Part shown: positions 80 to 21,626 of the stretch, piece by piece | Numbering within the stretch: the stretch's first letter is position 1 | Layout of the letters: the number at the start of each line of letters is the position of its first letter | IMG/VR virus record: IMGVR_UViG_3300030060_001627 | Coordinates: 1-31,384 of that record | Source of the DNA: a virus | Direction: 5' to 3' (one strand) | Length of the DNA stretch: 31,384 nucleotides | Made by a program: the position numbers and the translations under genes | The notes under the pieces: generated by a model | Databases searched by the model: none | What the model was told of the DNA's origin: nothing | What the model saw: only the letters and a program-made list of their open reading frames with translations

Positions 80-2021
80 CACAACAGCGGTAATAAAAGA
101 CGATGCCATAACCACGGCGAAGATAGCGGATGATGCTGTTACCGGGGCGCTAATTGCTGATGACGTAGCACTTGCTGGCAACCCCACAACCACAACTCAA
201 TCGGCGGGTAATAATACGACTAGGATCGCAACCACCGCATTCGTAACGACTGCCGTTACTAACCTTGTAGATTCTGCGCCTTCAGCACTAGACACGCTCA
301 ATGAGTTAGCCGCTGCAATGGGTGACGATGCGAACTTCTCAACCACTGTGACTAATAGTATCGCTACGAAGTTGCCTCTTGCGGGCGGTGCTTTAACTGG
401 GAATTTAACTACAAATTCAAGAGTCGCTATAGGTCAATCATCTGTTACGGGTGGTAATGTTTTACTTGATTTGCATGGTTCGGGTAGTGGTGTAGGCGCA
501 CAGTCAGCTTACTATAACGACCATAACACAAGCGGCTTCTTCGTGGGTCTTGCAGGAAACACTTCTGGCAATCCAATTATTTATAACGTACCCGACACAA
601 ACATAGAGTTTTATACAAACAATGCTATAGCAATGACCATAGCAAGTGGCGGGACAACCTTTGCGGGAAATGTATTTTCTGGCAATAAAACCGGACTTTC
701 CGATACTAATACAGGTCACGCAATAGCGCCCGGCGGTTTGGTTTATCACGCTACTGACGGAACCATAACACAATCTTTGAACAGACTAACAGACGATGGG
801 CCTGTCCTGAGATTAGTGGGCAACAATACAACCGCCGGTTCCATTGGTGTTTTGAGTGGCGGTTTGTCATTTGGCTCTGGTTCTTCGATGACGACACGAA
901 TGTCCCTTGATACAAACGGAAATTTACTCGTTGGAACAACTGATGTATCTCAATATAACAACGCTAGTGGTGCAGATCATGGAATTGTGTTAGCAGCTAC
1001 TAACTACATAGATATTTCGCGCAACGGCAACCCAATGCTCTATCTCAACAGAACAGATAGTGATGGACAGCTTGTATTATTTTCGCGAGAAGGTTCGGGT
1101 GTAGGCAGTATTGCCACTGAAGGCGGCGACATGGCTATTGGCAACGATGATGCTGGTATCCAATTTGTAAATGGCACAGAACACTTTAGACCATTTAACA
1201 TGACTACTAATGCTGCTACCAATGCACTTATGAATATTGGTTCTAGTAGTAAGCGTTTTAAAGACCTTTACCTATCTGGAACGTCTTATGTAGGCACACA
1301 AGTTAGGTTCACCAGCGTTTCCTACGATGATAGATCTTTCGGTTTAGACTCACATGGCTTCTATCTATACAACAATGACGATAGTCGTTATGACTTTCAC
1401 GTGGATGGAAATGGTGCGTTAAAGGCAGTAGGGAGCTACGGAAGCAAAATAAACGCAAACGATTCTTATCACGAATTTTCAGTTGGTGGTGGAGGCAGCG
1501 GTCTTGCTATGTATATTTTTAATAACAATACTTCTGGTTCCGGGCTTTTAATAAACGCAAATGGCAACGTAGGTAATAGTAATACCTATTTCTTGAGAGG
1601 CTATTCTGGGTCTGCAAGCCAAGATAACTTTTACATCTATTCTAATGGCAGCACTGACAGCAGAACTGGCACATACGGGACAATGTCTGATGTAAAGTTG
1701 AAGCAAGATATAGAGGATGCGAGTAGCCAGTGGGACGACGTAAAAGCTTTTCGTTTCCGTAAGTATCGTTTGAAAAGTGAAGTAGAAGCAGACCCTAATA
1801 CTGGGTATCACCTCGGTGTTATAGCGCAAGAATTAGAGCTGACTAGCCCCAATCTAGTTACAGAAAATCCAGATCTTGACGATCAAAATAACAATTTAGG
1901 AACAACGACTAAAGCAGTAAAAACGTCAATACTTTTGATGAAGACAGCAAAGGCTTTGCAAGAGGCTATGGATCGCATTGAAACGTTAGAAGCAGAAGTT
2001 GAGGCATTAAAGAATGGCTAA
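63..2021 (+). CDS. Tail fibre protein with C-terminal S74 peptidase/chaperone domain
   Basis: A 652-residue receptor-binding type fibre. The N-terminal ~100 residues have short hydrophobic/Asp repeats and the common phage motif PLAGGALTGNL. The middle is beta-rich, Gly/Asn/Ser-rich, with repeated 'GNLLVGTTD' and 'KDLYLSG' fibre signatures. The C-terminus (about 540-652) matches the S74 intramolecular chaperone: SDVKLKQDI supplies a Ser542/Lys547 pair with the Ser-x4-Lys spacing of the autocleavage dyad, followed by GVIAQELE and a coiled coil. In this family the domain trimerises the fibre and then cuts itself off. The start overlaps the previous fibre gene by 8 bases. Its N-terminal region is nearly the same protein as in the next gene. 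Confident as a fibre; the receptor cannot be told. Confidence 0.93.
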   Translation: MANTKITTAVIKDDAITTAKIADDAVTGALIADDVALAGNPTTTTQSAGNNTTRIATTAFVTTAVTNLVDSAPSALDTLNELAAAMGDDANFSTTVTNSIATKLPLAGGALTGNLTTNSRVAIGQSSVTGGNVLLDLHGSGSGVGAQSAYYNDHNTSGFFVGLAGNTSGNPIIYNVPDTNIEFYTNNAIAMTIASGGTTFAGNVFSGNKTGLSDTNTGHAIAPGGLVYHATDGTITQSLNRLTDDGPVLRLVGNNTTAGSIGVLSGGLSFGSGSSMTTRMSLDTNGNLLVGTTDVSQYNNASGADHGIVLAATNYIDISRNGNPMLYLNRTDSDGQLVLFSREGSGVGSIATEGGDMAIGNDDAGIQFVNGTEHFRPFNMTTNAATNALMNIGSSSKRFKDLYLSGTSYVGTQVRFTSVSYDDRSFGLDSHGFYLYNNDDSRYDFHVDGNGALKAVGSYGSKINANDSYHEFSVGGGGSGLAMYIFNNNTSGSGLLINANGNVGNSNTYFLRGYSGSASQDNFYIYSNGSTDSRTGTYGTMSDVKLKQDIEDASSQWDDVKAFRFRKYRLKSEVEADPNTGYHLGVIAQELELTSPNLVTENPDLDDQNNNLGTTTKAVKTSILLMKTAKALQEAMDRIETLEAEVEALKNG

Positions 2022-2030
2022 TACAAAGAT
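1992..2030 (+). repeat. Fibre-gene junction direct repeat, copy 2
   Basis: Second copy of the 39-base junction at 41-79. It again spans a fibre stop codon and the next fibre start (ATGGCTAA overlap). DNA conservation here contrasts with strong synonymous divergence just downstream. Confidence 0.75.
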
Positions 2031-3696
2031 ACAAAGCGAACAGGTAGAGGATGACATAGCGTTAGGGGGCAACCCTACCACTACCACTCAAAGCGCCGGG
2101 AACAATACAACGCGAGTTGCTACCACAGCGTTTGTCACAACGGCAGTCGCTAACCTTGTAGATAGCGCCCCTTCTGCCCTAGATACCTTGAACGAACTAG
2201 CAGCAGCGATGGGGGATGATGCCAGTTTTTCCACAACCATAACGAACAGCATAGCGACCAAGCTTCCTTTGGCTGGCGGCACGATGACGGGGAACATAGC
2301 TCACGCCTCTGATTTCACCATAGATGCTGGTGGCGACATTACGCTTGATGCAGATGGTGCGGACATCATACTCAAAGATGGCGGTACATCCTTCGCTGAA
2401 TTAGATAAAGATAACGACAACTTTAGAATCAAGAACCCTATCGCAGATGGCGATATAAAAATCCAAGGCGTGGACGGTAGCTCCACAATTACTGCGCTTG
2501 ACTTTGATATGTCAGCGGCGGGTGCAGCTACCTTTAATAGTAGCGCCGTATTTGGTGGAGACATAACCGCGAATACTGGTAGTTCAACAACAACTATTCG
2601 TTTGAAAAACAACGTAACTGGGACTGGTGGCACTGATGGCGCAGTGCTGCAAGTTGATTCAAATGAGTTTTATATCTGGAATTTTGAAAACGATGACATA
2701 ATTTTTGGCGCGAATAATAGTGAAAAAGTGCGTATAGACAGCAGCGGCAAACTTACTTACGGCGGCCTTTCTTATGGCGTTGCATTAGACCCTGACGGCT
2801 CTGGGGGATTTGGCTCTGGATATAACTTTGAAACAAATGGTGGAAGCCCACGTCATTTAGTAACTGGTCCTGTTTCTGGGCAGTATTTGTCTTCTGGTTC
2901 GTCTCCATTCATAGCTTGGTACACGGGAGCTTCTGCAAGTGCGAGTACGTCCGCACCAGAACGCCTGCGAATTGACAGCAGCGGGAATTTGCTTGTGGGT
3001 ACGACAGACAGCAGCGTCTACAACAACAGCGGTTCAGGAACAGGTATCAATCTTCAAAACTTTGGAAACATTGCCATCGCCAGAGATGGTAACGATTGCT
3101 TGGCTCTTAACCGTCTAAATTCGGATGGTGCGATTGCCAACTTCAACAAAGATGGCACAAACGTAGGTGTAATCGGTAGTGATTCAACAGATATTTTTAT
3201 AGGAACAGGCGACACAGGAATTAGATTTAATGATGCCGTTAATGGTGTTTTGCCTTATAACACTGGCTCTGGACAAACGGACGCAACTTTAGATTTAGGT
3301 TTTTCATCAGTTAGATGGAAAGACCTCTACCTATCTGGCGGCGCATACGTTGGAGGTACTGGGTCGGCTAACTATCTTGACGATTATGAAGAAGGGACGT
3401 GGACTCCATCTAACAGTGGAAACATAACAATCAATAGCACGGAAAATGCAACTTACACAAAAGTTGGAAGGCATGTGACTGCTAGTTGTTGGCTGAAAGT
3501 AAATCTTTCTTCCGCTAACGGTGTTCTGGGGGGGCTTCCTTTTAGCGGCTCTGGGAGAACAACAGCAGCGGTCAGCAACATCACTCAACAAGAAAATTTA
3601 TACAATCAGGTTCTTGGCACAACTGTTTATTTCTATGGTGCAACATCGTCAGGTACTAATGACGATATTTTATTTTCTATCTCATATGATACTTAA
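2014..3696 (+). CDS. Tail fibre protein without S74 domain
   Basis: A 560-residue second complete fibre. Residues ~10-95 repeat the N-terminal attachment-like region of the previous gene with few amino-acid changes. The middle carries 'GNLLVGTTD', a region parallel to its neighbour, and 'KDLYLSGGAYVGG'. The S74 chaperone is replaced by a C-terminal domain that opens with LDDYEEGTWTP and contains GGLPF, a common end domain of phage fibres and baseplate appendages. A run of seven G at 3528-3534 lies in this last domain; the in-frame reading (LGGLPF) is the family-like one. A short ORF in another frame continues to 3724, but I treat it as a shadow. Confidence 0.9.
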   Translation: MANTKIQSEQVEDDIALGGNPTTTTQSAGNNTTRVATTAFVTTAVANLVDSAPSALDTLNELAAAMGDDASFSTTITNSIATKLPLAGGTMTGNIAHASDFTIDAGGDITLDADGADIILKDGGTSFAELDKDNDNFRIKNPIADGDIKIQGVDGSSTITALDFDMSAAGAATFNSSAVFGGDITANTGSSTTTIRLKNNVTGTGGTDGAVLQVDSNEFYIWNFENDDIIFGANNSEKVRIDSSGKLTYGGLSYGVALDPDGSGGFGSGYNFETNGGSPRHLVTGPVSGQYLSSGSSPFIAWYTGASASASTSAPERLRIDSSGNLLVGTTDSSVYNNSGSGTGINLQNFGNIAIARDGNDCLALNRLNSDGAIANFNKDGTNVGVIGSDSTDIFIGTGDTGIRFNDAVNGVLPYNTGSGQTDATLDLGFSSVRWKDLYLSGGAYVGGTGSANYLDDYEEGTWTPSNSGNITINSTENATYTKVGRHVTASCWLKVNLSSANGVLGGLPFSGSGRTTAAVSNITQQENLYNQVLGTTVYFYGATSSGTNDDILFSISYDT

Positions 3697-11030: not shown

Positions 11031-11449
11031 TCAAGCTTCCCGAATGGCAAACCAAGTTACACAAGTACCTCACAGAAAACAGAGATAGAGATTTCGTATG
11101 GGGTACATGGGATTGCTGTATCTTTTCTGATGGTGCAATACACGCCATTTCTGGCAAGCACGTTATTCCTAGTGAATTAAGGTGGGGAAGCGAATCTGAT
11201 GCTTTTGAATCCATCACAGAATATGGCCGCACGTTTGCAAATGCCATAAAAAAAGCGGCGCGAGAAGCGGGGTTAGAACCAATAGATGTATCACAAATTA
11301 CGGCAGGTGATCTTGCCGTCTACATGAATAACAATGAGGAGCTTTGTGGCATCTGTGATGGGTATGCGTTGATCAGCCCAGCAGATGATGGTTATGCTTT
11401 CAACAAATGTGACACGGCCCGCATAGCTTGGAGAGTGCCTGATGGCTAA
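11027..11449 (+). CDS. Tail-tip cell-wall peptidase-like protein, DUF6950/NlpC-P60-like
   Basis: 140 residues. The start (PEWQTKLHKYLTENRDRDFVWGTWDCCIFSDGAIHAISG) resembles DUF6950, a phage family related to NlpC/P60 peptidases, with Cys at the nucleophile-like WDCC motif. AGDLAVY in the second half parallels the GDL segment of the fold. The usual catalytic His is not obvious, so activity is uncertain. In GTA-like tails this slot holds the gp14 peptidase that opens the wall. ATGA overlap with the hub gene. Confidence 0.75.
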   Translation: MIKLPEWQTKLHKYLTENRDRDFVWGTWDCCIFSDGAIHAISGKHVIPSELRWGSESDAFESITEYGRTFANAIKKAAREAGLEPIDVSQITAGDLAVYMNNNEELCGICDGYALISPADDGYAFNKCDTARIAWRVPDG

Positions 11450-14400
11450 AGCGATCAAGACTGCGATTATAGCCGTTGTCGTCACCGCTGTAATAATCTA
11501 TGGCGGGGCTATGGTATTGCAAGCATTGGGGCAAGGGACGGCGTTTGGTGCGGCAGCAGGAGGTCTTGCTGGCAAGCTCGCAGGAGCCGGCATTGGTATG
11601 TTGACCAGCACATTTGTTGGGACGCTAGCGGCAGCTGGTGTCGGAATGTTGATGTCACGCGGGGTTGATGGCAACAGTCAGAACTACGGAACCAAAACAT
11701 CTGTACGAGAAGCAGTTGCACCAAGACAGATAATTTACGGGATCACAAGAGTGGGCGGCGTGATTGCTCATATTGAAGTGAGCGGCGCAAACAATGAATT
11801 TCTTTGTATGATTGTTGTGGTCTCAGGCCATGAACTTGAAGGCTTTCAGAGTGTTATGTTCAATGATCTCACCCTTACAACATCCACATCCACTATAAGC
11901 GGGGAAACGGTACACAGAGTTACCAATTCCGAATTTTTGAACACTGAAAACCCTAGCAACTTTGGCAGCGGCAGTCTTGCCAGATTCACGTTTCATGACG
12001 GATCGCAAACCGCACATGATGGACTTGCCAGAGCTAGGCTAGGCGCGACTTCCATTCCATCAACTCATAAGTTTACGGACTGCGCTTATTTCTACATTGA
12101 ACTTATATTTGACTCAGAAAAGAACAATTCCATCCCGCAAATAAGCTTCGTTATGAAGGGCAAAAATGTTTTTGATCCGCGAACGAATGCAGCAGCGACC
12201 ACTGATCTACAGCGCAGCAACCCGGCCTTACAAATAAGAGATTACCTAACAGATACAACTTATGGCATACGGGCCACATCTGATGAACTAAATGACACAA
12301 CGAACGCTGGTGGATTTGCAGCAGCGGCAAACACTTGTGATCAAAACGTTACTTTGGCAGATGGGTCATCCACAGAGAAAAGATATACCAGTAATGGCGC
12401 GACTAATATGTCCGCATCTGGTGAATCTATTATTTCTGGCATCATGTCATCTATGGGCGGGCGGTTGACGTATACGAATGGCAAATTCAATTTGTTCGCT
12501 GGCGCAGCACAAACGCCATCAATGACCATCACAGATGATGATTTGTTAACAGCGGTGGCCGTTGAGACGAAGACTCGTACGGGTGATTTATATAACAGCG
12601 TCAAGGCTATATATGTAGACAGCAGCAATGACTTCAAAGCACAGGAAAGCCCGGTTCTGACTGATACCACTATGCTTTCGCATGACACACCACCCGGGAG
12701 TTCATCAGCCAACTTCAGAAAGACGTTAGAAGCACAGTTGCCGTGGACAACATCAGAAACTATGGCGCAGCGTTTGGGCAAGATACAGTTAAAGTATCAA
12801 AGACAAAGCATACAGTGTCGCGTTTCTGTGGGCATGGAGTTTTTTCGCTTGCAGCCGAATGATTTTGTGAGAATGACAAACGCTAGGCTTGATTTCACTA
12901 ACAAGCTTTTTGAAGTGCAAGACATACAAATGGCTCTGGACTCAGCTGACAACGCTTTGGTAGCCAGTGTGGACATGACGTTGCGAGAGATAGACAACGC
13001 TGTATGGGACTTTGCAACCAATGAGTATTCAGCTGGTATAGGCGAAGGATCTGCGATAGATACGGGTGACTTTTCTGTCAACGCGCCTACCATCGGAACG
13101 CTTACCCAGCGAGCAACGATCCAAGGGCCGCACACCATAATTGACATTATTGTGCCGTGGACTAACCAACAAACGGATGCGGTTCAAGGCACAGAGATAC
13201 AGTATAAAATTTCCAGCGAGAGCGATTATGCAGTTGCTACCGTGGCAGGGAAAGGTCAAACCAAAGGCGTTATCCAGAACGTCGTGGTAGGCAACACATA
13301 TAACGTCCGGTTGAGACACTTCAGCTATGACAACGTGTACTCCGGTTATTCATCTGTCGCTAATATTACGATCGCGGAATCAGATACCTTAGCGCAACCA
13401 TCTAGCGTCAGCGCCACCACCGGCAAGCCTTTCTTTATTGAGTTGAAGTGGACTAACCCAGCGAATACGAACCTTCGCGCCGTAGAAGTACACGCCAGCA
13501 CAACAAGCGGATTCACGCCTAGCACCGGGACACTTGTAAACAGTTATTACGGTGATGTAGGCAAAAACAAAAGAGTGTTGTTAGGTAAGAGCAGTGATTT
13601 TGGCTTTGATTACGGGACTACATTTTACTTTCGGTTACGGGCTATCAATGTGCTCGGCACTGCTACGGCATACACCTCACAAGTCGCTGGTTCTTTCACT
13701 AAGGCTGTAAGCGCTGACATAGACAGCATTTCGGCAAATCAAATAACCGCTGGGACAATAGATGCTTCCCAAATAGACGTGGAAAACCTAAATGCTTCCG
13801 AAATAACGGTTGGAGAGATCAACATCAACCGTTTGCCATCTACGGTGGTTTTTACGAGTGAGCTGACAGATGGGTCAACAGTCATTGACGGGAGCAATAT
13901 ACAAACTGGCGAAATAACGCTTACCTCTGGGGACGGCACTAGCAATTTAGCTCACATAAAAGGCGGCAAGACGTCTTATGAAGACACCAGCAATGAAGGT
14001 TTCTTCATGGGTTTCAACGCCAGCAATCACCCAGCGTTCAACATTGGCACCGGGTCTGACTTCCTTAAATACGATCAAAGCAATGGATTGACACTTCGCG
14101 GAACTCTTACAGCGGGAGACATAACCTCTGGCGGCACCTTGTCTGGTGTCAATATGGAGATCGGCTCCAGCAACTCTATATTTAAAGCCACAAGCTCTGG
14201 CATCCAACTAGGCCACGCAACATTTAGCAGTGCGCCGTTTAGGGTGACACCGGCCGGCGCTCTCACGGCAACTAACGCCACCTTGAGCGGATCTCTCACA
14301 AGTGGTTCTGGCAATAGTATTTTCAAGGCCACCACAACGGGCATCCAGCTAGGCCACGCTACGTTCTCCAGTGCGCCATTTCGTGTGACTGCGGCGGGCG

Positions 14401-15047
14401 CTTTGACAGCAACGAGCGCGACAATAACAGGCGCTATAACGGCCACCTCATTCGGTATGTCTGGTGGCGCAAAGATCAACGCTGGAGATATTCTGGCGAG
14501 CAGCAGTTTTTTCACCACAGACGGCAGCGGCAATCTGACACTAGCGGATGATGGTGTAACCTCTGATAAAATTGCTACTTCGCTGCAATCAAGTAATTAC
14601 TCTGCCGGTTCCGCTGGCTGGAAGATACAGAAATCAGGTAACGCAGAATTCAACGGGGTGGTTTTGAGCAGAAGCCTTGTGGTCGCTACCGGCACCATCA
14701 ATGTAGCTGCTGCAACCGCCGGATCTGGTGGGGTTCCAGCACAATCTGATGATGTTCAAGTTCTCAAAACCATATTCACACATGGAGTTTACAGTGCGGG
14801 TTTCAACGCGTGGTCAGGATCAACTAGCACTTTTCTTGTGCAAATGAGCATGAGTGGGAGCTTCTTCACAACCGTTGGACAAGAAACCAACGCGTTTTTA
14901 GGGCCACGCGGAACACTTCTACCTCTAACGGTATTTTCTGGGACACAAGCCTTTACTTTGCGAACGCAGCTATGGGGCAGACAGATCGGTGGGTGGGGTA
15001 GTCAGAATAATGTAGTTTTAACATATCGCATCTATAAGGTAACTTGA
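11442..15047 (+). CDS. Tail tip/host-specificity protein, J-like
   Basis: 1201 residues. The N-terminal ~75 residues are strongly hydrophobic and Gly/Ala-rich. Next comes a Phage-tail_3-type core (EAVAPRQIIYGITRVGGVIAHIE...) to about 560. One or two FN3-like domains follow (about 646-750, ending FYFRLRAINVLGTATAYT), then a DUF1983-like stretch with DSISANQITAGTIDASQID. The C-terminus has two copies of a 47-residue unit (about 908-954 and 955-1001) with the shared IQLGHATFSSAPFRVT. The C-terminal beta domain is presumably the receptor-contacting end. The start overlaps the previous stop within ATGGCTAA. Confidence 0.9.
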   Translation: MAKAIKTAIIAVVVTAVIIYGGAMVLQALGQGTAFGAAAGGLAGKLAGAGIGMLTSTFVGTLAAAGVGMLMSRGVDGNSQNYGTKTSVREAVAPRQIIYGITRVGGVIAHIEVSGANNEFLCMIVVVSGHELEGFQSVMFNDLTLTTSTSTISGETVHRVTNSEFLNTENPSNFGSGSLARFTFHDGSQTAHDGLARARLGATSIPSTHKFTDCAYFYIELIFDSEKNNSIPQISFVMKGKNVFDPRTNAAATTDLQRSNPALQIRDYLTDTTYGIRATSDELNDTTNAGGFAAAANTCDQNVTLADGSSTEKRYTSNGATNMSASGESIISGIMSSMGGRLTYTNGKFNLFAGAAQTPSMTITDDDLLTAVAVETKTRTGDLYNSVKAIYVDSSNDFKAQESPVLTDTTMLSHDTPPGSSSANFRKTLEAQLPWTTSETMAQRLGKIQLKYQRQSIQCRVSVGMEFFRLQPNDFVRMTNARLDFTNKLFEVQDIQMALDSADNALVASVDMTLREIDNAVWDFATNEYSAGIGEGSAIDTGDFSVNAPTIGTLTQRATIQGPHTIIDIIVPWTNQQTDAVQGTEIQYKISSESDYAVATVAGKGQTKGVIQNVVVGNTYNVRLRHFSYDNVYSGYSSVANITIAESDTLAQPSSVSATTGKPFFIELKWTNPANTNLRAVEVHASTTSGFTPSTGTLVNSYYGDVGKNKRVLLGKSSDFGFDYGTTFYFRLRAINVLGTATAYTSQVAGSFTKAVSADIDSISANQITAGTIDASQIDVENLNASEITVGEININRLPSTVVFTSELTDGSTVIDGSNIQTGEITLTSGDGTSNLAHIKGGKTSYEDTSNEGFFMGFNASNHPAFNIGTGSDFLKYDQSNGLTLRGTLTAGDITSGGTLSGVNMEIGSSNSIFKATSSGIQLGHATFSSAPFRVTPAGALTATNATLSGSLTSGSGNSIFKATTTGIQLGHATFSSAPFRVTAAGALTATSATITGAITATSFGMSGGAKINAGDILASSSFFTTDGSGNLTLADDGVTSDKIATSLQSSNYSAGSAGWKIQKSGNAEFNGVVLSRSLVVATGTINVAAATAGSGGVPAQSDDVQVLKTIFTHGVYSAGFNAWSGSTSTFLVQMSMSGSFFTTVGQETNAFLGPRGTLLPLTVFSGTQAFTLRTQLWGRQIGGWGSQNNVVLTYRIYKVT
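14163..14444 (+). repeat. Tandem repeat of two 141-base units in the tail tip gene
   Basis: Units at 14163-14303 and 14304-14444 encode near-identical 47-residue segments (NSIFKAT..GIQLGHATFSS core). The DNA copies differ at many synonymous positions, so the duplication is not recent. It sits in a receptor-proximal part of the protein. Confidence 0.8.
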
Positions 15048-15220
15048 TGAGTGAGATCGGCGACATTGTGGGCGGGAACATCACAGAAGATGGTGTTTTT
15101 GTAAATGAAATTGCTGTAAAGAATAATGACACCGTGACCGTGAATGTAATTTTTTATGCGAACGATCATGAAAGCTATGCAGAAAAGAGAGCAGCAGTAG
15201 AAGCGTTAAGCAGTGGATAG
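15047..15220 (+). CDS. Small protein of unknown function after the tail tip gene
   Basis: 57 residues, too short for routine ORF lists. It begins with ATG overlapping the tail tip stop (TGATG) and ends inside the start of the holin-like gene. It is acidic and beta-like (GNITEDGVFVNEIAVKNNDT, then TVNVIFYANDHESYAEK). The coupling to both neighbours supports it being real. Function not recognised. Confidence 0.62.
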   Translation: MSEIGDIVGGNITEDGVFVNEIAVKNNDTVTVNVIFYANDHESYAEKRAAVEALSSG

Positions 15221-15563
15221 CATTGTCACACTCATAAATGAGGTGGGATTCCCAATAGCTGCTGCCATCGGGCTTGGGCTTTTCGTTTGGAAACTTATTA
15301 CAAAAATAATAGATGGCATGGAAGCCAAGATTGATGTTCTGGATGACAAGGTTTCGGCACAGATAAGTGAGATAGAAGAACGGCTTGGTAGCAAGCTTGA
15401 TGCTCAAATGGGAATACTTGTTAGCCTCATAGATAGGGTTCGTTCTGTGGACAACGAAATCATCAGACAAGACACCATGATGAAAACCATCCTTGGGGTG
15501 CCAACATTGATGAACACAGACCGTATGGCAAAGGCTGATAGAGAAGATCAGAGAAAGGATTGA
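15213..15563 (+). CDS. Holin-like membrane protein
   Basis: 116 residues from a GTG start inside the end of the small upstream gene. One hydrophobic segment near residues 10-30 (GFPIAAAIGLGLFVWKLITK) is followed by a long charged coiled coil (KIDVLDDKVSAQISEIEERL and beyond). Single-membrane-segment proteins with a cytosolic coiled coil often act as holins or pinholins in phages. It lies at the left end of the lysis region. Its stop overlaps csgF. Confidence 0.65.
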   Translation: MDSIVTLINEVGFPIAAAIGLGLFVWKLITKIIDGMEAKIDVLDDKVSAQISEIEERLGSKLDAQMGILVSLIDRVRSVDNEIIRQDTMMKTILGVPTLMNTDRMAKADREDQRKD

Positions 15564-16030
15564 TGATGCGTGGTGAAATAAAATTTTATGCCTTGATCAA
15601 TGTTTTCGTCTTATTGCTGCTAACAACTCCAGCGGTGCTAAGTGATGAGATGAGGCACAAATTCAAAAGCCCTAGCTTTAGTGGTCAAGGCGCATCAAGC
15701 CACTATCTCACAATAGAAAACCAAACCTTTAACCGGAAGGAAGCCATTGACGCAAGATTAGAAGCGTTAGCGGATGAGCTAGAAAGGGAAGCACAAAATA
15801 CAACGCTGGCTAGATTCCAAAGAAATTTAGAGAGTAGAATATACGCTCAACTATCACGCCAGCTTGTAGATAACCTGTTCGGTGAAAACAAGAGCACAGA
15901 AGGCATCATTGAACTACTAGGCAATAAAATTGAGTATGAGAGCGATGGAGAAACTGTCACGCTTACCATCACAGATGAAGATGGCGGCACGACTACCATT
16001 GTTATTCCTGTCAACAGTTTTACTTTCTAG
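15563..16030 (+). CDS. csgF: Curli assembly protein CsgF homologue
   Basis: About 155 residues from ATG 15563 (TGATG overlap); TTG 15560 and ATG 15566 are alternatives. A signal peptide ends near LLLTTPAVLS. The mature start (HKFKSPSFSGQGASSHYLTI) aligns with the conserved CsgF opening (FRNPNFGG...); in E. coli this part inserts into the CsgG pore. The C-terminus (TVTLTITDEDGGTTTIVIPV) matches the CsgF end (LNVTDRKTGQTSTIQV). In bacteria CsgF caps CsgG and helps nucleate curli. It overlaps csgG by 56 bases. Finding it next to csgG in a phage lysis region is unusual. Confidence 0.88.
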   Translation: MMRGEIKFYALINVFVLLLLTTPAVLSDEMRHKFKSPSFSGQGASSHYLTIENQTFNRKEAIDARLEALADELEREAQNTTLARFQRNLESRIYAQLSRQLVDNLFGENKSTEGIIELLGNKIEYESDGETVTLTITDEDGGTTTIVIPVNSFTF

Positions 16031-16778
16031 CTGCCAAACAGACCCCCGCGCCGCTATTGATGCAAAGCCAGAACCTAACGCCCTGATAGGTGAATTGCTG
16101 GTTGGAGAGCTGGCGCTAGTAGAAACACCAAAGCAGCGCCCGGTCATAGCTATATACGCGCAAGCATTCCAAGACTTTACGGGACAACGCAGAAGCAACA
16201 GCCAATACGCAGACTTTTCCACAGCAGTGACCCAAGCGCCCTACGCATACCTTATACGCGCACTCAAACACGCTGGCGGCGGCGAATTCTTTGATGTTGT
16301 AGAAAGGGTTGGCTTAGATAATCTAACCAAAGAAAGGCAGCTAATTCGTTCTACAAGGCAGCAGTTTGAAGATGACCAAGACCTTATGCCATTGAAATTC
16401 GCTGGTTTATTGATGGAAGGAGGCGTGATAGGGTACGAAAGCAACGTGAAGTCAGGCGGCTTCGGTGCGAGGTATTTGGGGATCGGTGCTTCCAAAGAGT
16501 ACCGACAGGACACTGTAACAATAAGCCTTCGCACAATATCAGTCTCAACCGGGAAGGTGTTGCTTGAAGTCTTGATTACCAAGTCAATATTCAGTGTTGG
16601 CTATAGTCAGGATATTTTTCGTTTCATTGGGCAAGGGACGAAACTAATTGAGATTGAGAATGGTGTGGTTGAAAACGAAAGCGTTGGTTTCGCGCTGCAG
16701 ATCGCTATTGAGACTGCCGTTCTGGAAACTATTAAGCAGGGTTACGATAATCTTTTCTGGATTCCTCGCGACTACTAG
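15975..16778 (+). CDS. csgG: Curli secretion pore CsgG homologue (outer-membrane lipoprotein)
   Basis: 267 residues from ATG 15975; upstream ATG codons at 15930 and 15945 and one at 15981 are alternatives. The chosen start gives a compact lipoprotein signal with lipobox LSSC (Cys20). The body is clearly CsgG: DFSTAVTQ, the near-invariant GYESNVKSGG and GARYLGIGA, VSTGKVLLEV and IFRFI. In E. coli nine CsgG subunits form a barrel whose neck is set by Tyr51, Asn55 and Phe56. Here Phe is kept, Asn is Asp, and the Tyr sits two residues later, so the gate may differ. The C-terminus is about 20 residues shorter than in E. coli. Its end overlaps the curlin-like gene. Confidence 0.93.
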   Translation: MKMAARLPLLFLSTVLLSSCQTDPRAAIDAKPEPNALIGELLVGELALVETPKQRPVIAIYAQAFQDFTGQRRSNSQYADFSTAVTQAPYAYLIRALKHAGGGEFFDVVERVGLDNLTKERQLIRSTRQQFEDDQDLMPLKFAGLLMEGGVIGYESNVKSGGFGARYLGIGASKEYRQDTVTISLRTISVSTGKVLLEVLITKSIFSVGYSQDIFRFIGQGTKLIEIENGVVENESVGFALQIAIETAVLETIKQGYDNLFWIPRDY

Positions 16779-16872
16779 CTACGCAGACAATGAAATATAT
16801 GTCAATCAGGTCGGCGCAACAGCCAACATTGATTTAGAACAGCTGGGATCAAACAACGTGATCGGCGGGTAG
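16708..16872 (+). CDS. Curlin-like protein, N-terminal segment with signal peptide (ends at a frameshift stop)
   Basis: 54 codons from a TTG inside the end of csgG. A good signal peptide (LRLPFWKLLSRVTIIFSGF, cut after TTSYA) leads into curlin-type repeats: IYVNQVG then IDLEQLGSNNVIGG, the familiar Q-x-G..N spacing of CsgA/CsgB. The frame then meets TAG at 16870. The repeats resume at once in the +1 frame (next entry). ATG codons at 16648 and 16660 are open upstream but would give long, unlikely leaders. I think this is the first part of one protein rather than a separate gene. Confidence 0.72.
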   Translation: MRLPFWKLLSRVTIIFSGFLATTSYADNEIYVNQVGATANIDLEQLGSNNVIGG

Positions 16873-16873
16873 C

Positions 16874-17422
16874 ATGACTGCCCTAGATCTTGATGGCACT
16901 AACCTGACACTGGATATCAATCAGATTGGTAACAACAACATCTACCGGGGCGACATTCTTGGTAATTCCAACACCGTCTTCATGGAATTTGATGGTGATT
17001 CGAACTCTTTTACCATCCAAGTTGATCCGACGAACACTTACAGCGCTGACTCTGGCAACTACAACGTTGATGTCACCGGGTCATCTAACAGCATGACGTT
17101 AAACGTTGGCACAGCGGCTTTATCTGATACCTTAGACCTTGATTGGATCATCAATGGCTCATCCAACAGCATAACCAGTTCTATTGATATAGATCAGGCT
17201 ACCAACTACATGGATATTGATGGTTCCAACAATACGGTGACATATGATGGTGACGGCGCGGCGACAGGGTACTTCTATCTGGATCAAACGGGTTCATCAC
17301 GAACTTTCAATATCCAGCAGCAAAGCACATCCGCGCAAGATTGGCTCAAAATTATTTCTACTAGCTCTAATGGCACTATGTGCGTCATTCAAAACGACCA
17401 AGGTACAAGCACAAGCTGTTGA
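16874..17422 (+). CDS. Curlin-like repeat protein, main body
   Basis: 182 codons in the +1 frame relative to the signal-peptide segment. It is rich in Asn, Asp, Ser and Gly, with repeating beta-strand units: LTLDINQIGNNN, GNSNTVFMEFDGDSNSFTI, GSSNSMTLNV, GSSNSITSSIDIDQ, DGSNNTVTYDG and FYLDQTGSSRTFNIQQ. The pattern fits secreted curlin-like fibre proteins. It has an ATG at 16874 but no signal peptide of its own, so export needs joining to the segment before it. Two Cys (near CVIQNDQ and at the end, STSC) could form a disulfide. It would be the natural substrate of the CsgG/CsgF pore next to it. The 3' end overlaps the FecR-domain gene. Confidence 0.8.
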   Translation: MTALDLDGTNLTLDINQIGNNNIYRGDILGNSNTVFMEFDGDSNSFTIQVDPTNTYSADSGNYNVDVTGSSNSMTLNVGTAALSDTLDLDWIINGSSNSITSSIDIDQATNYMDIDGSNNTVTYDGDGAATGYFYLDQTGSSRTFNIQQQSTSAQDWLKIISTSSNGTMCVIQNDQGTSTSC

Positions 17423-18452
17423 AGTTGGCGCTATAAGCGACGTCAAAGGCGCTGCGCGGGTTTTACGTGATACCCCTTATGCTGCAAGCCTTAACTTCAA
17501 TTTATTGCTGAGCGACGATCTCAGGACTTCTCAGGGCAGGTTAGAAGCTACGTTCTTAGATGACAGCACTGTACGACTTACAGAGCACTCATCTTTGGTC
17601 ATTGACGAATACGTTTTTGATCCAAACCCTTCTAAATCAAAAATGGCTATCTCTTTTGCAAGCGGAACGGCGCGTTTCATAACGGGCAAGCTAGGTCTCA
17701 TTGATAAGCAAAATATAAAGCTACGAACGCCAACCGCGGATATTGCCATACGCGGGACGGACTTTACTTGTACGGTAGATGAGCTTGGCCGCTCCCTAAT
17801 CATTCTGTTGCCAAAACTGGACGGCACTTCAAGCGGTGAGATCTTGGTGACTACCGCGCTTGGTTCTGTGACGCTTAATAAACCATATGAAGCAACCACG
17901 GTTGATGTATACGAAAAAACACCCACCGCCCCCGTGATATTGGATCTGACGCTGGATCTCATTGACAACATCTTGATCGTGAACCCACCCAAAGAAGAAG
18001 CATCGTTAGAAGAAGAACAGACGGCGCAAGCGGTTGATTATTTAGAATTCGATGATCTTGATGTGGACTTCTTAGCAGAAGACTTTCTGGACAATGAAGC
18101 GGACTTAGAATTCACGGAGCTAGATATAAATTATTTGGATGTGAACTTTCTTGAAGATCTGCTCAATATTGTTGACGCGCTGGCGGTGAAAGAAGAAGAA
18201 GATCAACTCAAGCAGCTAGCGACGAGTATAAATATCAAAGGCACCAGCATAGGCCAAGACCCCGTCACACAGATCACAACCATCATACAGGGCCAAAACG
18301 TATCTATCAGACGCAACGTTTCATCAAACGCAAGGATTGACTTAGACGGCTCTGGATCGTACACAGTTATATTAAGTCAGGGCGGTATCAAAAACACAGT
18401 GATAGTAAACGGTGGTGGTAGCTCAATAGTAAGGATAACGCAGGGTTCGTAA
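17340..18452 (+). CDS. Exported FecR-domain protein with acidic linker and curlin-like C-terminus
   Basis: About 370 residues. Coordinates start at an ATT codon, which gives a full signal peptide (GSKLFLLALMALCASF, cut near VQAQA). The first normal ATG nearby (17370) would cut that signal in half, and the ATG at 17244 would give a very long leader; the true start is open. The mature part is FecR-like: VEVGAISDVKGAARVL, TSQGRLEATFLDDSTVRL and IAIRGTDF. An acidic linker of about 80 residues follows (YLEFDDLDVDFLAEDF...). The last ~60 residues (YTVILSQGGIKNTVIVN, SSIVRITQGS) again look like curlin repeats. FecR-type proteins often sit next to CHASE2 cyclases, as here (TAATG overlap). Confidence 0.8.
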   Translation: MGSKLFLLALMALCASFKTTKVQAQAVEVGAISDVKGAARVLRDTPYAASLNFNLLLSDDLRTSQGRLEATFLDDSTVRLTEHSSLVIDEYVFDPNPSKSKMAISFASGTARFITGKLGLIDKQNIKLRTPTADIAIRGTDFTCTVDELGRSLIILLPKLDGTSSGEILVTTALGSVTLNKPYEATTVDVYEKTPTAPVILDLTLDLIDNILIVNPPKEEASLEEEQTAQAVDYLEFDDLDVDFLAEDFLDNEADLEFTELDINYLDVNFLEDLLNIVDALAVKEEEDQLKQLATSINIKGTSIGQDPVTQITTIIQGQNVSIRRNVSSNARIDLDGSGSYTVILSQGGIKNTVIVNGGGSSIVRITQGS

Positions 18453-20209
18453 TGAGATTTTTGTACATTTACATCTTTCTCCTGTTGCCTATGGCGTTCA
18501 ACTTCTCAGGTTTAGAAATGTTGAAGCTCAAGGTATTTGATGTATTTGTTTCTACCCCAGAACCCAGTGGCAACTTTGCCGTGTTAAATATCACAGAGGC
18601 AGATGTGGAAGAACAGCTTGGCTGGCCTTTCCCTCGTACTGTCTTGGCAAACCTGCAAGAAGATATGATGGAGAAGGGTGCGCTAGGCGTGGGCTGGGTC
18701 ATCAGCTTCCCGCAACCCGGCAGATGGAACGGTGACAAACTTTTTGCTTTGATAGCCAATCAGCACCCATCTGTGTTCGCTATGTTCGAAAGCCCTAACA
18801 GGGAATATCCCAAGACCACTGGTACTGTCATCATGGGCGAAGATATTGGCGGCTACTTGGCTACCGGCACCATACAAAACACCCCAAAACTACAAATCAA
18901 CCAAGGCATCGTTTCGGCACCTATTGATGTTGATGGATTGTTGCGCCGTATGCCTCTGCTCATGCGAACACCGGATGGCTGGATACCATCATTCGCAGTG
19001 CAATCACTAAAAACTTTAACGGGTGGTGACACATACATAATTAAAACGAACGAAAACGGGTTGGAAAACGTTCGCATCCCAGAATTACCGCCCATCCCAG
19101 TAGATTCTATGGGCCGCAAGTGGGTGTCTTGGGTCGAACCAATAGAAACCACGATGGATGATATGGATGTAGCAGGTAAATTCGTATTCGTCGGGGTGAC
19201 AGCAAAAGGTGTGATGCCGCAAATTTCTACACCAGCTGGCCTGATGTACCCTCATCACATACAAGCGGCGTTTGCAGAGTCACTTATCAATCAAAATTCA
19301 CCAATTATCAAAGATTACGCGCCAGCGGTGGAAATGTTGGTTTTTACCGCCGTTCTCGGGCTTGTGTACGCTTCTATCACGTTTTTGGGGGTAGCCCTTG
19401 GTATTTTAGGGGCTATCGCTGTTTGGCTTGCCACGGGGCTTACAGGCGCTTATCTAATAAATACAGGAATGTTGCTAGATGTTTCGTGGTCATTGGTTGC
19501 TTCTGTGGTTATGGGGGCCGGCGCGTTCTATTTCAGATTCAAGGAGCAATGGCAGCTGCGCCAACAGATCAAAAAACAATTTGAGCATTACCTTGATCCA
19601 AGACAGGTGGCAGAGCTGCAAAAGAACCCTGATAAGCTCAAACTGGGTGGTGATCGCGCTTATGCAACTTTCTTGTTCACAGATGTGCGGGGGTTCACCT
19701 CTCTGTCAGAGCAGCTTGAACCCGAAGAAGTGACCTATGTGATGAACCGGGCGTTGACTGTGCAATCTGACGCAGTAAAAGAAAATGGTGGTCTGGTAGA
19801 TAAATACATCGGTGATGCGATGATGGCTATATGGAACGTGCCGTTGCCTATGCAAGATCATGAGTTAAAAGCGCTGCAATGTGCCAGAGATATAGAGGCC
19901 GGAATGGTCACGTTGAACGAAGAGCTTACGGCAGATGAAAAGCCCAATATTCAAATAGGCATTGGTATCAATACAGGCGATGCAATAGTAGGCAACATGG
20001 GAAGCGCAACACGGTTTGATTACACAGCGATAGGTGATGCAGTAAACACTGCTGCACGTTTGGAATCAGCAACAAAAGCCGAAGGCGTAAACGTTTTGAT
20101 CGGGGCCAACACTGCACACGCTGTACAGGAAGGGCTACGGTATCACAATGACATAAGCGTCAAAGGCAAAAAAGAAGGATTGAAGGTGTACACATGGGAT
20201 TCAAAGTAA
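18452..20209 (+). CDS. CHASE2-domain membrane adenylate cyclase (class III)
   Basis: 585 residues. An N-terminal hydrophobic anchor (about 4-16) precedes a periplasmic CHASE2 sensor domain (about 30-285). Three membrane segments lie at about 290-360, and a cytoplasmic class III cyclase domain fills 400-585. Key residues are present: metal Asp411 (FTDVRGFTSL) and Asp455 (DKYIGDAMMA), Lys451 for adenine recognition, Thr525 (FDYTAIGDAVN), and Asn532/Arg536 for catalysis (VNTAARLES). It should make cAMP from ATP, possibly in response to a signal outside the inner membrane. It is TAATG-coupled to the FecR-domain gene; this pair is common in bacteria but unusual in a phage. It overlaps the spanin gene by 16 bases. 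Confidence 0.93.
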   Translation: MRFLYIYIFLLLPMAFNFSGLEMLKLKVFDVFVSTPEPSGNFAVLNITEADVEEQLGWPFPRTVLANLQEDMMEKGALGVGWVISFPQPGRWNGDKLFALIANQHPSVFAMFESPNREYPKTTGTVIMGEDIGGYLATGTIQNTPKLQINQGIVSAPIDVDGLLRRMPLLMRTPDGWIPSFAVQSLKTLTGGDTYIIKTNENGLENVRIPELPPIPVDSMGRKWVSWVEPIETTMDDMDVAGKFVFVGVTAKGVMPQISTPAGLMYPHHIQAAFAESLINQNSPIIKDYAPAVEMLVFTAVLGLVYASITFLGVALGILGAIAVWLATGLTGAYLINTGMLLDVSWSLVASVVMGAGAFYFRFKEQWQLRQQIKKQFEHYLDPRQVAELQKNPDKLKLGGDRAYATFLFTDVRGFTSLSEQLEPEEVTYVMNRALTVQSDAVKENGGLVDKYIGDAMMAIWNVPLPMQDHELKALQCARDIEAGMVTLNEELTADEKPNIQIGIGINTGDAIVGNMGSATRFDYTAIGDAVNTAARLESATKAEGVNVLIGANTAHAVQEGLRYHNDISVKGKKEGLKVYTWDSK

Positions 20210-20589
20210 GCGCGGCGGCGGGTGTTCTACTCTTGTTATCAGGTATTGCGTTTAAGCTTTACTATGACAAAGCGCAAGCACAGATAGCTTCTCTTAAGCA
20301 AGAAATCATAACGCTGCAACAAAATGAAGAATTGTTAAAAAAAGAGATAACAGAACAAAACGAACAGCTACAGGAACAGCTACGCAAATCACAAGAGCAG
20401 TTTGAACAGATAAACTTGCTCAATGAGCGCAACCAACAAGCGAACGCAGATATAGCAAACCTGCGATCTAAATTTGCCAAACACGACCTTAATTATCTAT
20501 CATTGCGGAAACCAAAGCTCATCGAAAAAATCGTGAACAAAGGTACTGCCGAAGTCTTAACAAATCTTGAAAACCTTACTGATAATTAG
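20194..20589 (+). CDS. Inner-membrane spanin, Rz-like
   Basis: 131 residues. An N-terminal membrane anchor (VSAAAGVLLLLSGIAFKLYY) is followed by a long periplasmic coiled coil rich in Gln/Glu/Lys (about 25-95) and the Rz-like end segment KPKLIEKIVNKGTAEVLTNL. In Gram-negative phages it pairs with an outer-membrane lipoprotein to fuse the membranes at lysis. The next gene is an embedded lipoprotein with this spacing. The start lies inside the cyclase 3' end. Confidence 0.85.
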   Translation: MGFKVSAAAGVLLLLSGIAFKLYYDKAQAQIASLKQEIITLQQNEELLKKEITEQNEQLQEQLRKSQEQFEQINLLNERNQQANADIANLRSKFAKHDLNYLSLRKPKLIEKIVNKGTAEVLTNLENLTDN

Positions 20590-20944
20590 TTTCTCCTGTC
20601 TCGCCGGCTGTAGTTTGCTAACCCCGCAACCTCCCAAAGCTGCGCCGGTTGAGATAGTGAGGGTAGAAGTTCCCGCCCCCGTTTACCACCCAAACCTGCC
20701 AGAAAAGGTCAAAACGTTGCCTGTAGAATGGACTGTTCTTACGCCTGATTTGATGAAAGAATACGTCACAGATCTGGAAAATGGAGAAGCGCCGGTAAAC
20801 GTTTGGTATTCGCTGACAACAAAAGGTTATGAAAACCTTAGTCAAAATATGGCAGAAGTTCAGCGGTACATAAAACAAGCGCTCAACATTATTGATTATT
20901 ACAAGTCACTAGACGAAGGGGGAACCGATGACGCTACTGATTGA
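20567..20944 (+). CDS. Outer-membrane spanin lipoprotein, Rz1-like
   Basis: 125 residues from a TTG start inside the Rz-like gene. The lipoprotein signal MKTLLIISFSCLAGC gives lipobox LAGC (Cys15). After it comes a Pro-rich stretch (LLTPQPPKAAPVE, VPAPVYHPNLP) typical of outer-membrane spanins, then a helical C-terminus. The overlapping arrangement is the classic Rz/Rz1 layout. The protein is longer than lambda Rz1. Confidence 0.82.
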   Translation: MKTLLIISFSCLAGCSLLTPQPPKAAPVEIVRVEVPAPVYHPNLPEKVKTLPVEWTVLTPDLMKEYVTDLENGEAPVNVWYSLTTKGYENLSQNMAEVQRYIKQALNIIDYYKSLDEGGTDDATD

Positions 20945-21092: not shown

Positions 21093-21294
21093 CACCGTTG
21101 AGGATTGTTTAGTCCTCATCGAAACAACCCGCAACGTCTTAAGCGTTTATAATGATAATGACGCTATCATAGACCAGCTGATGGATATTGCCTTGCATCT
21201 CGAAAAAGAAAAGAAGGGTGCGATGGCTTATTGGCTATATAAAGCGTGTGATAGCTTGGAGGGTATGGATTGTATACTTACAGGGCAGTCTTAG
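21070..21294 (+). CDS. Small acidic helical protein, unknown function
   Basis: 74 residues from a TTG start inside the preceding gene. Mostly helical, acidic (VEDCLVLIETTRNVLSVYND, then IIDQLMDIALHLEKEKKG). It overlaps the SNase gene. No family recognised. Confidence 0.65.
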   Translation: MEKPKTSNTVEDCLVLIETTRNVLSVYNDNDAIIDQLMDIALHLEKEKKGAMAYWLYKACDSLEGMDCILTGQS

Positions 21295-21626
21295 ATCGTG
21301 TGATAGATGGTGACACCATTGATGTAGATATTGATCTAGGGTTTGATGTTTGGCTGAAGAAGCAACGTGTCAGGCTACATGGCATTGACACACCGGAATC
21401 AAGGACTCGCAACAAGGCTGAAAAGGTGCTAGGTCTTGCCGCGAAGGAACGATTAAAAGAGCTGTGTGCTGATGGGATAAGCATACAGTCATTGGGAAAG
21501 GGCAAGTATGGAAGGATCTTGGGCATCCCGTACACTGCGACAGATGTTGACATTTGTGCGCTCCTTATTGAAGAAGGACATGCAGTTGAGTATCACGGCG
21601 GTAAGAAGACCAAAGTATGGGGATAA
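21270..21626 (+). CDS. SNase-like (thermonuclease fold) nuclease
   Basis: 118 residues from TTG 21270, with GGAGGG about six bases upstream. The staphylococcal nuclease pattern is complete: DGDT (Asp13, Asp15), RVRLHGIDTPESR (Arg35, Asp40, Glu43) and KYGRILG (Arg82). It has no signal peptide, so it would act in the cytoplasm, possibly on host nucleic acid. It overlaps the gene before and precedes the lysozyme by 4 bases. Confidence 0.9.
   Translation: MYTYRAVLDRVIDGDTIDVDIDLGFDVWLKKQRVRLHGIDTPESRTRNKAEKVLGLAAKERLKELCADGISIQSLGKGKYGRILGIPYTATDVDICALLIEEGHAVEYHGGKKTKVWG

Follow-up and report, generated by a model that had tools for sequence, protein, structure and literature searches.

The window analysed here is the whole of a viral contig from IMG/VR (IMGVR_UViG_3300030060_001627, 31,384 bases), in which a CHASE2-class III adenylate cyclase gene ends a cassette of six genes ordered as small membrane protein, CsgF, CsgG, curlin-like protein, FecR and cyclase (Table 1). 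Because tape measure, distal tail and J-like genes are present, the genome is considered to be of siphophage type. Elsewhere on the contig, the neighbouring tail-fibre genes at 63-2021 and 2014-3696 have the N-terminal families phrog_2631, 7032 and 454 in common and then diverge, the first having an S74 chaperone domain at its end; this pair possibly represents alternative or duplicated fibres.

Table 1. Features of the curli-FecR-cyclase cassette and its borders in the window.
Feature	Coordinates	Strand	Remarks
J-like tail tip protein	11442..15047	+	Upstream border of insertion; PF13550, PF09327, phrog_31
Small membrane protein	15213..15563	+	One TM and coiled coil; phrog_18771; fixed first cassette gene
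CsgF curli assembly protein	15560..16030	+	PF10614, E 1.2e-18; phrog_35372
CsgG curli outer-membrane pore lipoprotein	15930..16778	+	PF03783, E 8e-46; lipobox LLSSC
Curlin-like gene, 5' part	16648..16872	+	Encodes the signal peptide and initial repeats; a TTG near 16708 is the likely start
Curlin-like gene, 3' part	16874..17422	+	Out of frame with 5' part
FecR-domain exported protein	17244..18452	+	PF04773, E 4e-10; phrog_37870, E 1e-66; true start uncertain, mature part from about 17415
CHASE2-class III adenylate cyclase	18452..20209	+	ATG start, 585 aa; N-terminal membrane helix, CHASE2 at residues 11-301 (Pfam PF05226, E 9.8e-28), three membrane helices at about 290-377, cytoplasmic cyclase domain at 401-581 (Pfam Guanylate_cyc PF00211, E 1e-20, residues 405-580)
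Rz-like inner-membrane spanin	20194..20589	+	phrog_739, E 3.5e-12
Rz1-like outer-membrane spanin lipoprotein	20567..20944	+	phrog_812, E 4e-16
SNase-like nuclease	21270-21626		Lysis region
Endolysin (phage lysozyme)	21508..22077	+	End of lysis region; PF00959, E 1.6e-9

The hexad of the cyclase is complete, with D411 and D455 for metal binding, K451 and T525 for the substrate, and N532 and R536 for the transition state. Among 88 phage homologues, D411, K451, D455 and R536 are each found in 88/88, and the substrate-specifying position 525 is T in 61, S in 26 and D in one. N532 is kept in 87/88, the single exception being the cyclase of phage Melnitz (L008, 9917-11968), where a Ser replaces the transition-state Asn and activity may be reduced or lost; cyclase activity may therefore be dispensable in some phages. 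Since the guanylyl cyclase Cya2 has a Glu at the position of K451, the family rules point to ATP as the substrate. In the AlphaFold model (pLDDT 88), CHASE2 is flanked by a helix at residues 2-15 and by the three membrane helices (290-377), and the predicted cyclase domain superimposes on CyaC in its complex with an ATP analogue (Z 26.4; 1.6 A across 186 residues). Given the intact catalytic site, together with the strong purifying selection reported below, production of cAMP is predicted to be likely. The gene is phage-borne, as a whole virus contig carries it along with tape measure, J-like tail tip, spanin and endolysin genes, and contamination from a host chromosome is ruled out by the phage structural and lysis genes that flank it on both sides. 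A chance ORF or a degenerate cyclase is likewise ruled out by the Pfam matches, the kept hexad and the dN/dS values. Judging from the sequence, this marine tailed phage does carry an intact gene for a true membrane adenylate cyclase; the preliminary description, which had reported a phage-encoded membrane CHASE2 cyclase with all catalytic residues, is on this point borne out by Pfam, by the six hexad positions and by the nature of the contig.

Regarding the first cassette gene, proteins of phrog_18771 measure 93-116 aa with one TM and a coiled coil (in the window; in L007, 6899-7461; in L008, 5210-5848), and their gene stands directly before csgF in one or two copies. As the "histidine kinase" of a published phage module (PMC9599517) also precedes csgF in one or two copies, we infer that both are the same gene; neither Pfam nor NCBIfam finds a kinase domain in the small protein, and the label, read literally, is apparently not supported. 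The data do not support its being a resident holin, since the gene always precedes csgF and is absent, along with the cassette, from the empty site described below, an absence that also assigns it to the cassette. CsgG matches the NCBIfam CsgG model at E 1e-43, under the equivalog cut-off of that model, and its true start probably lies inside the ORF given in Table 1. The curlin-like gene is homologous to annotated phage curlin genes and occupies the same place, although it has no PF07012 match and its frame is broken: 17 nt are missing with respect to L002, L005 and L006, which cuts the frame early, while the other 45 loci compared have a single intact ORF, leaving the window as the only break in 46. 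This deletion may be genuine or may stem from faulty assembly, intact copies being present in close relatives; unless it is the latter, fibres are perhaps not made by this phage.

The predicted model of the FecR protein comprises a FecR beta domain, a disordered acidic linker and a C-terminal beta domain. The first of these resembles the cell-surface-signalling domain of PupR (Z 15.9), while no good structural match is found for the C-terminal beta domain (Z about 3). Residues 1-94 of the mature part (window 17415-18449) also match, more weakly, a cell-surface anchoring domain (PDB 5ix9, Z 6.7); this modelled likeness is weak evidence that the part may have a retention role. An N-terminal cytoplasmic anti-sigma domain of the DUF4880 type was not found in the FecR proteins of the window and of HTVC008M, which match PF04773 only. 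A curlin-repeat motif, QxGxxN, occurs at the C-terminus in the window and in most carriers and is set aside as evidence because HTVC008M and Melnitz lack it. The FecR stop codon overlaps the ATG of the cyclase (TAATG), and across 46 loci the overlap between FecR stop and cyclase start amounts to either 4 or 1 nt.

This tight arrangement is found well beyond the window. Relatives of the cyclase in viral contigs number at least 594, and the same block is annotated in Pelagibacter phage HTVC008M (KC465899) and Methylophilales phage Melnitz (MZ577096). In a sample made up of the window and the 87 loci most like it out of these relatives, counting only loci with enough flank, FecR lies upstream of the cyclase in 66/66, csgG, csgF and curlin are present in 35/35 each, and the small membrane gene in 29/29 (17 single, 12 double). 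With the small membrane protein as a second, independent seed in a single-protein scan, csgF is adjacent in 74/74, and FecR and cyclase are both present in 52/52. A module for type VIII secretion (T8SS) with FecR, adenylate cyclase and "histidine kinase" has been described in pelagi-myo- and podophages, and transfer between phage families has been proposed for it (PMC9599517). The phage curli cassette itself is thus already known and the window is a further carrier, so that the notion of a lone, unusual acquisition by this phage does not hold: the cyclase ends a fixed, published curli/T8SS-FecR-cyclase cassette. Nor is the gene absent from all related phages, being present in L002-L006 and found to be lacking only in the more distant siphophages L173 and L174. 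What can be added here is the siphophage-type carrier of 46% GC, the empty site, the repeated placement in lysis cassettes and the lack of a kinase domain in the "histidine kinase" gene; in their accessible and searchable parts, PMC9599517, PMC7029224 and PMC9004378 report neither a siphophage carrier nor a spanin or holin neighbourhood.

These data bear directly on whether the cyclase acts alone, its CHASE2 domain sensing an outside cue so that host cAMP and CRP-controlled transcription are reset. While the intact hexad and strong purifying selection agree with such a takeover of the host, no sampled locus whose flank allowed the comparison has the cyclase without FecR and curli genes, and across this sample both cyclase and FecR are obligate members of the cassette. 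The adjacent FecR also offers an internal partner, and the phage's own exported FecR is a more likely cue for CHASE2 than the outside signal first proposed. Furthermore, no cNMP-binding protein or domain is encoded in any of the 24 carrier records searched, which eliminates a phage-encoded cAMP receptor for these records and implies that any effect of cAMP must go through the host; as for a host receptor in SAR11, the literature yielded nothing usable. A stand-alone action of this kind is therefore highly improbable, and that reading of the cyclase is wrong or at least incomplete.

With regard to its origin, the 43 phage cyclases in the tree fall into a single clade (support 99) that excludes the 32 bacterial sequences, and within it the window groups with L002-L006 (support 98). 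The best bacterial matches, mostly from Alphaproteobacteria, reach at most about 34% identity. Recent capture from a bacterial donor is ruled out by this low identity and the separate phage clade, and the domain phylogeny that was expected to name a donor points to no recent one. Comparison with the nearest relative, L002, gives dN/dS values of 0.031 for the cyclase, 0.018 for FecR, 0.027 for CsgF, 0.050 for CsgG and 0.018 for the small gene, low values in all five cassette genes measured, with the cyclase under strong purifying selection. The cassette could still be thought of as an inert passenger captured from a bacterium, as might be suggested by the broken curlin frame of the window and by the loss of a catalytic residue in 1/88 homologues. 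However, dN/dS values of 0.02-0.05 and a catalytic site conserved across a deep clade of phage sequences alone already largely refute this, and its probability is close to nil.

In bacteria, FecR and CHASE2 cyclases are found as pairs in Campylobacterota, together with a phosphodiesterase (PMC9239204). Other bacterial homologues of the cyclase stand beside FecR without curli genes (L115, L134, L156 and L094) or adjoin HlyD secretion genes, and neither csgG nor csgF lies within the fetched flanks of 80 bacterial loci. From these FecR/cyclase pairs, and from the PupR-like, FecR-only fold, we infer that the phage FecR would provide the periplasmic input to CHASE2. Two bacterial loci merit separate mention. 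In Bradyrhizobium (L094, 1415-6802), a FecR-LamG-cadherin protein of 1796 residues, an adhesin-like partner, lies directly upstream of the CHASE2 cyclase. In an uncultured alphaproteobacterium (L123, 5270-6985), one ORF upstream of the CHASE2 cyclase homologue combines cNMP-binding and HlyD type I secretion domains, a fusion that suggests, from its sequence, cAMP acting directly on a secretion machine.

The presence of CsgF, CsgG and the curlin-like gene in every locus where they could be sought is what would be expected if the cassette made curli-like fibres serving in sibling capture, superinfection block or debris trapping, with the cyclase only tuning export (PMC7029224; PMC9599517). Sibling capture in particular was proposed for the phage curli module in PMC7029224, and bacterial cyclase homologues beside the FecR-LamG-cadherin adhesin and HlyD secretion genes fit a role of this sort. 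In contrast, the curlin gene is broken in the window and clumping was not observed among cells infected by Melnitz (PMC9004378). Such a fibre or adhesion module is a real possibility, albeit one that falls short of being probable.

The place of insertion raises a different question. In the siphophages L173 and L174, whose J protein is 48% identical to that of the window and whose tape measure is related, an empty site is found: J is followed by one small gene, Rz and Rz1, L174 running on to an endolysin, and no CsgG or cyclase domain occurs anywhere in either contig. J-like tail genes are present in 7/28 long carrier contigs, which indicates that several carriers are of siphophage type. An SNase-type nuclease gene, as in the lysis region of the window, also adjoins the cassette in L074 (5875-6297). 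Downstream genes were compared in the 74 loci whose sequence extends 0.9 kb or more past the cyclase, all picked for likeness to the window: Rz/Rz1 follow in 41, a multi-TM gene of phrog_1544, usually with the endolysin next, in 21, a PF11351 holin in five and none of these in seven. In 64/74, a gene for a spanin, a PF11351 holin or an endolysin is reached within 2.5 kb of the cyclase end. When the downstream gene types are mapped on the cyclase tree, at least 7 changes are counted over 32 tips (10 over 36 tips when unclassified ones are included), so that the lysis neighbourhood is not simply one inherited insertion.

Such recurrence speaks for a lysis-timing device, as was conceived for Melnitz (PMC9004378), in which the curli pore, the small membrane protein and the cyclase set the time of burst and fibres are secondary. 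Spanins or holin/endolysin genes come directly after the cassette in most non-myophage carriers, in the window Rz begins within the end of the cyclase gene, the two sharing 16 nt, and the first cassette gene encodes a small, one-TM protein with a match, though only a weak one, to a holin family (phrog_4898, E 0.002). On the other hand, the curlin-like gene and FecR, needless for a pure lysis timer, are always kept, the carriers retain their own endolysin and spanins, and in the two T4-like carriers, HTVC008M and Melnitz, the cassette lies away from the lysis genes. Moreover, accessory genes are often found where the late operon ends. Lysis timing as the primary function is thus rather unlikely.

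We lean, if only slightly, towards a model in which the cyclase provides the output signal of a fixed curli (type VIII secretion) cassette of six genes, placed between the tail-tip and spanin genes of a marine siphophage-type genome. The cassette, whose region shows no promoter-like or terminator-like signals above chance, would probably be transcribed late with the lysis genes, to judge from its position only. CsgG and CsgF would form an outer-membrane pore exporting the curlin-like protein and perhaps also the linker and C-terminal beta domain of FecR, while the FecR beta domain would remain in the periplasm as the binding partner of CHASE2. The state of the envelope, of curli export or of the fibres could then set cyclase activity via FecR, and cAMP, through a host receptor, might keep the envelope or the late-infection state suitable until lysis. 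Beyond this, it can be speculated that the whole serves as an envelope surveillance and lysis-coordination circuit, in which curli-type export and exported FecR feed the cyclase and the progress of late infection at the envelope is read as cAMP and coupled to lysis. This extension is decidedly unlikely; if true, a phage-encoded transmembrane second-messenger circuit would be spread through marine myo-, podo- and siphophages. In any case, the phage curli cassette occurs widely in the ocean, and opinion on what it does is divided between fibres with sibling capture and lysis timing. The obligate presence of cyclase and FecR among the sampled loci, the repeated placement inside lysis cassettes of different types, the occurrence also in siphophage-type genomes of higher GC and the missing kinase domain now reduce this dispute to simple genetic and biochemical tests.

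Several known systems share parts of this architecture. The catalytic fold resembles that of CyaC from Arthrospira (Spirulina) platensis and CyaB from Pseudomonas aeruginosa (Z 26.4 and 25.5), with the same metal, Lys and Asn/Arg residues; unlike these enzymes, the window cyclase has a CHASE2 membrane sensor as input domain and is phage-borne. The phage FecR has the periplasmic beta domain fold of the FecI/FecR cell-surface signalling regulators (FecR, PupR), but lacks both the anti-sigma domain and a FecI neighbour, and is exported and paired with a cyclase. In the bacterial pairs of Campylobacterota (PMC9239204), Bradyrhizobium, Thalassospira and Limnobacter, FecR lies directly upstream of a CHASE2 class III cyclase as in the phage; these pairs differ in the lack of csgG/csgF in the flanks of the 80 loci, in their identity of at most about 34% and in a FecR partner that is sometimes very large and adhesin-like. 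Closest is the T8SS module of HTVC023P-type podophages and pelagimyophages (PMC9599517), with the same gene set and order of phrog_18771 small gene(s), CsgF, CsgG, curlin or curlin-like gene, FecR and cyclase. Compared with that module, the window has a siphophage-type carrier with a J-like tail tip and 46% GC, single rather than paired small membrane and curlin genes, an insertion between J and Rz, a broken curlin frame, and a cyclase 30-32% identical to the myophage versions.
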